Under the pieces are notes generated by a model. The model had not been told where the DNA came from and did not search any database. It was given only the letters and a program-made list of their open reading frames with translations. The translations under genes and the position numbers were made by a program. From an uncultured Clostridia bacterium (GTDB lineage: Bacteria; Bacillota; Clostridia; CALYAR01): DNA of 33,154 bases. This document shows positions 16,535-18,208 of the stretch, in pieces; positions within the stretch are counted from its first letter, which is position 1, and each line of letters opens with the position of its first letter. The stretch spans positions 1 to 33,154 of the forward strand of contig CALYAR010000103.1 in assembly GCA_944393585.1 (NCBI GenBank). Direction: 5' to 3'.

Positions 16535-16689
16535 CTTAGGGAGGGAGGCGCTTCGGGGAGGCCAATGGCCGAACCCGCCCTCCCTAAGCGCTTTTTAGGT
16601 GAAGGACCTTTTTTGCGTAAAAAAGGTCCTTCGGGGGTCCCCAGCCGCCAAAGGCGGCGCGGGGTATAACCGCCGTCCGCAGACGGCGG
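16535..16689 (-). repeat. Five-hairpin-type intergenic element, copy 2 (inverted)
   Basis: In plus coordinates the stems are 16535-16545/16578-16588 (11 bp, with inner GGCC/GGCC), 16601-16614/16619-16632 (14 bp), 16644-16649/16653-16658 (with outer CCCC/GGGG) and 16670-16677/16682-16689 (8 bp). Read on the minus strand the order of stems and linkers equals copy 1: CTGGGGACCCCCGAAGG before the 14-bp stem and CCTTCACCTAAAAAGCGC after it. The 14-bp stems of the two copies differ at three positions, and each change is matched in the opposite arm. Confidence 0.75.
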
Positions 16690-16789
16690 AACTCTCATGC
16701 GCGCCAAAAGATTGGTAAAGCAAATGTTTGCGTGTGCAATTCCGTTTGCAGAGACGCGGCCCGATGGTATGCGGATTTGCAGATTTATC

Positions 16790-16818
16790 TTGACATTGTG
16801 TCCGGCCTGTGTTACAGT
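16790..16818 (+). promoter_or_regulatory. tyrS promoter
   Basis: A consensus TTGACA (16790-16795) is followed after exactly 17 bases by TACAGT (16813-16818). The start near 16825 gives a leader of about 210 bases before tyrS. Confidence 0.75.
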
Positions 16819-16845
16819 GGTACAAATTGAAATGGAGAGAACCAA

Positions 16846-16941
16846 ATGAATCAATTTTTGTTAGTCATGATCCGTGCATATCAGAGCGAGTCTGTTTCTT
16901 ATTATTATGGAGACAGGCTTGGGCTGCTGTTGCAAAAATGA
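16846..16941 (+). CDS. Putative Tyr-rich leader peptide of tyrS (31 residues)
   Basis: The ATG at 16846 is preceded by GGAGAG (16834-16839), a good ribosome binding site at correct spacing, about 21 bases after the expected start site. It opens 31 codons ending in TGA at 16939-16941. The product starts MNQFLLVMIRAYQ and contains SYYYGDR: three consecutive TAT codons at 16900-16908, plus one more TAT at codon 12. Four tyrosines in 31 residues directly upstream of a tyrosyl-tRNA synthetase gene fit a sensor of Tyr-tRNA charge. The peptide itself probably has no function. It has not been matched to any known leader peptide. Confidence 0.72.
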   Translation: MNQFLLVMIRAYQSESVSYYYGDRLGLLLQK

Positions 16942-17001
16942 CGCGGTTGGATCCGGGTATTATGAGCGGCTTGAGCAGAATCTGCTTTCGCCGCTTTTTT
17001 T
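16889..17001 (+). promoter_or_regulatory. Predicted ribosome-mediated attenuator of tyrS
   Basis: Three competing pairings are visible. Hairpin 1:2 pairs 16889-16898 with 16910-16919 (10 bp, two G-U) and holds the three Tyr codons in its loop. A possible antiterminator pairs 16917-16928 with 16965-16976 in 12 consecutive pairs (four of them G-U). The terminator uses 16965-16970 with 16990-16995. A ribosome stalled at the Tyr codons would open hairpin 1:2 and free 16917-16928 to capture the terminator arm. A ribosome reaching the stop at 16939-16941 would cover that segment and let the terminator form. These pairings were found by eye and energies were not computed. Confidence 0.65.
16965..17001 (+). 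terminator. Intrinsic terminator in the tyrS leader
   Basis: AGCGGC (16965-16970) pairs with GCCGCT (16990-16995), with an inner AGCA/TGCT stem, and is followed by a run of seven T (16995-17001). It lies 35 bases before the tyrS start and inside its transcript, so it must be conditional. Confidence 0.8.
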
Positions 17002-17035
17002 ATTTTTTAAAAGTAAAATGAAAGGAGTCATTCAA

Positions 17036-18208
17036 ATGGACGTAATGCAAGTATTTGAAATTTTAAAGCGCGACTGCATTAATATGGTGTCACCGGAGGG
17101 GATTTTAGAAAAATTAAAGAGCGGAAAGCGGCTGAAAATCAAGCTGGGAGCGGACCCGTCCCGGCCGGATCTGCATCTGGGGCACAGTGTGGTGCTGCGA
17201 AAGCTGCGGCTGCTTCAGCAGCTGGGACATGAGATCATTTTTGTCATCGGCGATTTTACCGGCATGATCGGCGACCCGTCTGGCAAGAGCAAAACACGCC
17301 AGCCGCTTACCTTTGAGCAAACGCGCGAAAATGGAGAGACCTATTTCAAACAGGTGACGAAAATTTTAGATCCGGACAAGACCAGCATTATTTACAATTC
17401 CGAGTGGCTGTCCAAGATGAATTTTTCGGATGTGCTCAAGCTTGCCGGAAAATATACGGTGGCGCGGATTTTAGAGCGTGATGATTTTGCCAAGCGGCTA
17501 AGCGAGAATTCCGCCATCGGAATGCACGAGCTGTTTTATCCGCTCATGCAGGGCTATGATTCGGTCGCGCTCCATGCGGATATCGAGGTAGGCGGAAACG
17601 ACCAGACCTTTAATCTGCTGGTAGGGCGGGATCTCCAGCGCGATTACGGCCAGCCGCCGCAGGATGTCATTACATTTCCGCTGCTCCCGGGGCTGGACGG
17701 CGTGGAGAAAATGAGCAAATCTCTGGATAACTACATTGGCATTGATGAGCCTGCCCCGGTGATGTTCGAAAAATGTATGAAAGTGCCCGATGAGCTTTTG
17801 GGCGATTATTTCCGCCTGACAACCGATTTGCAGGAGGAAGAATATGGGCCGCTGCTGGAAACCGACATCCGCCGGGCCCATGTCCGCTATGCCAGGGAGA
17901 TTGTCTCGCTCTATTGGAGTGCAGAAGCCGCCGAAGAGGCCTTTCTGCGTTATCAGCGCGTGGCCTCCGGGGCCTTGCCGGAAGATATGGAAACGGTTTT
18001 TTGCGATAATCCTTCGGCCGATGTCGTCCATCTCCTGCGGCTGACCGGCCTGGCCGGCTCCAACGGAGAAGCGCGCCGTCTGATCGAAGGAAGAGGGATC
18101 AAAATCGACGGCAAAGTCGTGGAGAAAATCGGCCAAACTGCCGAAGGAAAACATGAAATCGTTTTGAGCAAGGGAAAGAACAAATTCGTCCGCGTGCGGT
18201 TTCAATAG
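17036..18208 (+). CDS. tyrS: Tyrosyl-tRNA synthetase (type 2, TyrZ-like)
   Basis: This class I synthetase charges tRNA-Tyr in the cytoplasm. The 390-residue protein has HLGH (47-50, the HIGH motif) in LGADPSRPDLHLGH, GDFTGMIGDPSGKSKTR, GGNDQTFNLLVGRDLQ and KMSKS (225-229). A C-terminal S4 RNA-binding domain (LLRLTGLAGSNGEARRLIEGRGIKIDG) follows. Length and motifs fit the type-2 branch typified by Bacillus TyrZ. The ATG at 17036 is used because AAAGGAG lies eight bases upstream and the frame before it runs through the leader terminator. It is transcribed alone behind a leader with an apparent Tyr-codon attenuator. Confidence 0.97.
   Translation: MDVMQVFEILKRDCINMVSPEGILEKLKSGKRLKIKLGADPSRPDLHLGHSVVLRKLRLLQQLGHEIIFVIGDFTGMIGDPSGKSKTRQPLTFEQTRENGETYFKQVTKILDPDKTSIIYNSEWLSKMNFSDVLKLAGKYTVARILERDDFAKRLSENSAIGMHELFYPLMQGYDSVALHADIEVGGNDQTFNLLVGRDLQRDYGQPPQDVITFPLLPGLDGVEKMSKSLDNYIGIDEPAPVMFEKCMKVPDELLGDYFRLTTDLQEEEYGPLLETDIRRAHVRYAREIVSLYWSAEAAEEAFLRYQRVASGALPEDMETVFCDNPSADVVHLLRLTGLAGSNGEARRLIEGRGIKIDGKVVEKIGQTAEGKHEIVLSKGKNKFVRVRFQ

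Follow-up and report, generated by a model that had tools for sequence, protein, structure and literature searches.

Classical transcription attenuators, represented by the E. coli trp, his and pheST leaders, are composed of a promoter, a short open reading frame (ORF) with tandem codons for the sensed amino acid and the hairpins 1:2, 2:3 and 3:4, and the pheST attenuator also controls a synthetase. The locus analyzed here shares the promoter, the ORF with a codon run, the 1:2 hairpin around the codons, the 2:3 antiterminator and the 3:4 terminator, while its tyrosine codons, its target tyrS and its Clostridia host are different. In Firmicutes, His leader peptides precede hisS* and hisZ in bacilli (PMC2965389) and the his operons of the B. 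cereus group, Peptostreptococcaceae and Erysipelotrichales (PMC9413887). In these leaders, as is proposed for the present locus, leader-peptide attenuation stands in place of a T-box, and in the bacilli (PMC2965389) it is similarly situated before a duplicated synthetase gene, whereas the amino acid is histidine and the genes and lineages are other ones. The S. aureus ilv operon has a leucine-rich attenuator peptide (PMC5794164). This is again a Firmicute leader peptide containing codons for the amino acid that is sensed, but the operon is a biosynthetic one and the codons are those of leucine. Classical attenuators before synthetase genes of Gram-positive bacteria are described for Streptomyces trpS and leuS (Seliverstov et al. 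2005, PMC1262725), with Trp and Leu codons and in Actinobacteria; in the same work, tyrosine genes in other species are RNA-regulated by T-boxes. The tyrS gene of Enterococcus durans is under a T-box (PMC3315439; Rfam RF00230). Such tyrS leaders have the same target, and premature termination is likewise relieved when tRNA-Tyr is uncharged, but there no ribosome takes part, the tRNA being sensed by the T-box RNA itself, and a T-box is absent in our locus. Among the open-access papers searched, none was found to describe a tyrosine leader peptide, and as subscription journals fell mostly outside this scope, novelty is unproven. The original prediction had called such a sensor unusual and possibly undescribed; its Tyr specificity is apparently undescribed in the literature covered, while leader-peptide attenuation in Firmicutes is already known (PMC2965389, PMC9413887, PMC5794164). 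The mechanism class is old, and the tyrosine specificity and the replacement of the T-box here appear to be new.

The window, i.e. the whole stretch of 33,154 nucleotides analyzed, contains between 16790 and 17036 a promoter, a short ORF with a ribosome site, a TAT run, a hairpin and a terminator in this order, followed by tyrS. Together with the position of the Tyr codons in the hairpin loop and a mutually exclusive antiterminator, this is the classical ribosome-mediated attenuation layout that had been proposed. The features are as follows.

16790 to 16818, forward strand: sigma-70-type promoter, TTGACA-17-TACAGT, 10/12 matches, TG before the -10 (extended -10)
16833 to 16838, forward strand: Shine-Dalgarno sequence GGAGAG of the leader ORF, from the sequence
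16846 to 16941, forward strand: leader peptide ORF of 31 codons, MNQFLLVMIRAYQSESVSYYYGDRLGLLLQK followed by a stop, from the sequence
16887 to 16921, forward strand: anti-antiterminator (1:2) hairpin of 13 bp, 16887-16899 with 16909-16921, from folding
16900 to 16908, forward strand: three tandem Tyr codons (TAT), TATTATTAT, the exact 9-nt loop of the 1:2 hairpin, from folding
16917 to 16928, forward strand: region 2, the antiterminator 5' strand, GCTTGGGCTGCT, from pairing, sequence kept in relatives
16965 to 16976, forward strand: region 3, the antiterminator 3' strand and terminator 5' arm, AGCGGCTTGAGC, from folding and pairing
16965 to 17001, forward strand: intrinsic terminator, stem 16965-16995 with an internal loop, seven T at 16995-17001, from sequence and folding
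17036 to 18208, forward strand: tyrS, assigned as type-2 tyrosyl-tRNA synthetase (TyrRS), 390 aa, by TIGR00234 (344 bits) and PF00579

Promoter scan of the window located TTGACA at 16790 and, after a spacer of 17 nt, a TACAGT ending at 16818, in agreement with the predicted consensus promoter. It is the sole strong promoter of the scan and is situated upstream of 16846, the position beyond which a transcription start would speak against the leader. The predicted 31-codon ORF was also found, with its GGAGAG ribosome site and three TAT codons. Among 1114 window ORFs of 15-60 codons, nested starts counted, YYY is present in one, which is the leader ORF, via three nested starts. It does not occur in the 8018 codons of the 18 larger window ORFs taken as genes, and the probability of a chance YYY in 31 codons is about 0.0014 (3.6% Tyr). 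On the 5' side of the promoter, several strong inverted repeats follow each other in a row at 16535-16700 of the window, for example AAGGACCTTTTTTGCGTAAAAAAGGTCCTT and CCGCCGTCCGCAGACGGCGG; they probably serve to terminate the preceding region or else represent repeat elements.

The hairpin with the Tyr codons in its loop is present as predicted, except that it has 13 bp instead of 10 bp. The possible 12-bp antiterminator helix was found to form 12/12 standard pairs between 16917-16928 and 16965-16976, with an energy of -19.5 kcal/mol. A duplex equally strong was obtained with 12 of 1000 shuffles of region 2 and with 5 of 1000 shuffles of the region 3 arm. The intrinsic terminator with seven T before tyrS was recovered by folding and missed by a pattern scan, probably owing to the internal loop in its stem. 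Positions 16917-16921 are common to the 1:2 hairpin and the antiterminator, and 16965-16976 are common to the antiterminator and the terminator. The antiterminator, which takes up part of the hairpin with region 2 and the terminator 5' arm with region 3, therefore excludes both other structures. When the Tyr run was covered by a ribosome and the RNA ended at the terminator loop, the antiterminator was the minimum-energy fold of the window leader (-23.8), and likewise of the leaders at three related loci (L092, L095 and L096). If the ribosome holds the second Tyr codon in its A site, the uncovered RNA starts exactly at the first antiterminator base in the window and in L095. In the complete RNA at equilibrium, folding of the window, L095 and L096 leaders favoured the terminator despite the stalled ribosome. 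The decision of the switch must therefore fall co-transcriptionally, as in classical attenuators.

On the basis of this layout, stalling, termination and induction are proposed to take place in the following way. RNA polymerase would start at about 16825, and a ribosome would translate the leader ORF behind it. With ample Tyr-tRNA, the ribosome would clear the Tyr run, reach the stop codon (16939) and cover region 2; alternatively, it would depart at the stop and the 13-bp 1:2 hairpin would re-form. Region 3 would then fold as the terminator, and transcription would stop short of tyrS. Under a shortage of charged Tyr-tRNA, the ribosome would stall at TATTATTAT, with a footprint which holds the 1:2 hairpin open and ends immediately 5' of region 2. 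The antiterminator would then form from regions 2 and 3 while the 3' arm of the terminator is still to be transcribed, leading to read-through into tyrS. Judged from sequence and folding, tyrS is very probably controlled by such a Tyr-specific ribosome-mediated transcription attenuator.

The order of the window is represented by a single genome in the set, and comparisons were made across families of one class. The same plan, in largely different sequence, was found before type-2 tyrS in three other families of this class. The leader of L092 (G027), whose TyrRS is 70% identical to that of the window, reads MNDILLKVIYYYLPVYPNRPGLLRPFSRG with YYY; that of L095 (G023, 65%) reads MKKRSLESNGSRAYVYAYSYYYGSGLGSPLPYGTGCFM with YYY; and that of L096 (G143, 62%) reads MAVNRQHSSNMYYYNYYYLNRLGLLLS with YYYNYYY, each ending in a stop. 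All three possess a promoter and a terminator. A further leader, MYQSLHSNEYMYMYYYGRICL with YYY and a stop, is present in G391 (L080, identical with L158), whose TyrRS is 46-49% identical to that of the window. TTGACA promoters are located in the same place in L092, L096 and L080, and each of them is followed by a short ORF that has a ribosome-binding site. The L095 leader has no clear Shine-Dalgarno sequence. Its ORF starts near position 3022 of L095 (minus strand), a few bases past the predicted transcription start, and it may therefore be translated as a leaderless mRNA. The Tyr codons are situated in the hairpin loop region in L096 and L095 and just 5' of the hairpin in L092. Region 2 is GCYTGGRYT-like in L092, L095 and L096, and each terminator 5' arm pairs with its own region 2, as given below for region 2 and region 3 of each locus.

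Window: GCUUGGGCUGCU with AGCGGCUUGAGC
L095: GCUUGGGUCGC with GCGGUUCAGGC
L096: GCUUGGGCU with GGCUCAGGC
L092: GCCUGGAUU with AGUCCAAGGC, one bulge

The leader ORF of the window with its Tyr run, and likewise the pair of antiterminator and terminator, recur in these three relatives. As MAFFT alignments of the leaders place region 3 out of register, the pairs were counted in per-locus registers. With these registers chosen by eye and G-U allowed, 41/41 positions pair over the window, L092, L095 and L096, with bases changed on both strands; at pair 7, for example, G-C is replaced by A-U in L092. The antiterminator duplex of L095 was no stronger than its shuffles (219/1000 as good), and in a cross-pairing test, heterologous region 2/3 duplexes often matched the cognate strength. 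Compensatory change had been suggested as a check on the helix; pairing is kept despite base changes, but with G-U frequent and heterologous duplexes often equally stable, covariation is supportive rather than decisive and lends the antiterminator modest support. The G391 switch has its own long antiterminator, unlike the other four in sequence. In folding, the antiterminator strand of this switch binds the Tyr-codon region as long as the RNA is free; with a stalled ribosome and an incomplete transcript, it pairs with the terminator arm instead. L012-L016, near relatives of the same clade, carry no leader, and the gene follows close behind another gene in most of them.

The comparison also bears on whether tyrosine is the signal at all. 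The attenuator might be driven by a protein antiterminator or by a general slowing of translation with the Tyr run incidental, and overlapping antiterminator/terminator pairs are indeed also known in protein-controlled systems. However, Tyr runs occur in five loci whose peptides are otherwise unlike, always before a TyrRS gene, and runs of other amino acids do not recur, save LLL in two of the same leaders. A trigger other than Tyr stalling is thus considered very unlikely.

No T-box was visible in the sequence at first inspection, and Rfam is in line with this: no T-box was detected in the window, and none up to E = 10 within 16600-17100. At gathering scores no Rfam family matched the leader region, and the T-box model (RF00230) gave no match at any of the other leader loci. 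By the same model, seven T-boxes are present elsewhere in the host genome, at proS, valS, leuA, pheS, serS, trpE and ileS; the host therefore uses T-boxes widely, though not for type-2 tyrS. About half of the related tyrS loci (49/99) also have a T-box by motif. These numbers would speak for a divergent T-box, or another tRNA-sensing riboswitch, missed by Rfam. Against it, the T-box motif is absent as well as any Rfam match, the roughly 140 nt from transcription start to terminator are mostly ORF, and the Tyr codons are in frame within an ORF having a ribosome site, which makes a riboswitch of this kind highly improbable.

Between the T-box (where present) and tyrS, many related Clostridia possess another, highly conserved short ORF with the consensus MTQxFxMKTIIxGFFYExSYN, in front of which a strong ribosome site of the AGGAGGTGAT type is often present. 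It was observed at 3665-3989 of L021 and at matching places of L022, L024, L026, L027, L029, L030, L034, L036, L039, L040, L041, L044, L050, L052, L054, L055 and L057. No Rfam family was found for it in three loci scanned. ACCC...GGGT stretches in this ORF could form a hairpin.

The specificity of the run was analyzed in 99 non-redundant tyrS upstream regions. When the regions had to contain a short ORF in which one amino acid occurs three times in succession, a terminator between this ORF and tyrS and no T-box, Tyr runs were found in 4 loci, Leu runs in 2 of the same leaders and runs of other amino acids in none. The G391 leader lies outside this filter, being too far from its own terminator. 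When the terminator requirement was dropped, the Tyr count in these regions was no longer exceptional. The pattern TATTAYTAYN{0,30}GGCYTGGRYTG matched in 4/391 genomes of the class, three of the matches being tyrS leaders; the match at L152 (G373) was rejected as antisense inside tpiA. L049 and L089 have YYY ORFs, but a terminator was not found after them, and L023/L091 have a terminator before tyrS without a Tyr leader. A phylum-wide sample was also compared with the G391 enzyme, and no YYY leader was found at its 30 best-matching loci.

Triple Ile or Leu runs do arise by chance in some tyrS upstream regions, so the ORF could be a chance one before an ordinary terminator, without regulation. 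Such an accident has very little to recommend it, since YYY occurs in that single window ORF, the plan is conserved in four families, and a gene which a terminator separates from its sole strong promoter needs some means of read-through. Short ORFs are common just upstream of genes, but a leader ORF acting as a translational antenna which boosts re-initiation at tyrS has a negligible chance of being correct, as the leader stop is 94 nt before tyrS with the terminator between, and the antenna model covers ORF-gene distances of about 10-16 nt (Korolev et al., PMC4833913).

The proposed Tyr-specific attenuator precedes a gene whose product is, by sequence, a type-2 (Thermus-like) TyrRS. Its best solved relative is 1h3e of T. 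thermophilus (394 bits), and with the type-1 structures of B. stearothermophilus/S. aureus it scores 116 (1jii) and 110 (2ts1) bits. The predicted target was therefore correct as a TyrRS gene, but it is not the sole tyrS, the genome having a second, type-1 TyrRS. The type-1 gene is divided, with one piece at the start of contig C95 (11-427) and the other at that of C92 (17-775), apparently as a result of an assembly break. Upstream of it, neither a T-box nor a Tyr leader was seen. In the small numbers of genomes compared, type 1 and type 2 occur together in 5/5 leader-bearing genomes, and both single-TyrRS genomes examined (L012 and L013) have type 2 without a leader. As tyrS is the second TyrRS beside a type-1 gene without visible leader, the simplest reading is that the type-2 enzyme is probably an inducible supplementary synthetase.

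Two further two-copy genomes, G083 and G208, show other upstream features. In G083 (L093, minus strand), a Tyr-rich ORF, MYMYRNYAPIDCYIIDSYINADRG followed by a stop, with 5 Tyr in 24, ends a few bases before tyrS without a terminator and is perhaps a translational version of the Tyr sensor. In G208, a group II intron end (RF00029; L094 2684-2764, minus strand) is located directly upstream of type-2 tyrS, and a leader beyond the intron is not visible because the contig ends about 1.3 kb upstream.

To the evolution of the leader, a tree of 66 type-2 TyrRS enzymes was applied. It grouped the window, L092, L095 and L096 in a single clade of 11 rows with support 90, in which no T-box occurs. G391 branched elsewhere on a long branch, among T-box-bearing Clostridium sequences, and this placement is uncertain. 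The most economical reading of the tree would be one origin, a loss in the L012-L016 group and an independent origin in G391, where the YYY leader and its different-looking switch appear to have arisen independently. It is a tentative suggestion, rather doubtful at present, that the Tyr-codon attenuator evolved at least two times in Clostridia-like Bacillota, replacing the T-box and making type-2 TyrRS an inducible back-up.

If the attenuator operates as proposed, tyrosine would join the amino acids sensed by leader-peptide attenuation. Some Clostridia would then control this gene family by a T-box and others by a sensor based on translation, the leader of G391 being a probable independent repeat. 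The timing of the sensor swap would become testable in a single gene tree, with the leader linked to the presence of a second synthetase. On the tentative back-up reading, in which the Tyr attenuator senses charging and not tyrosine, blocking the housekeeping type-1 TyrRS would in itself induce the type-2 paralogue.
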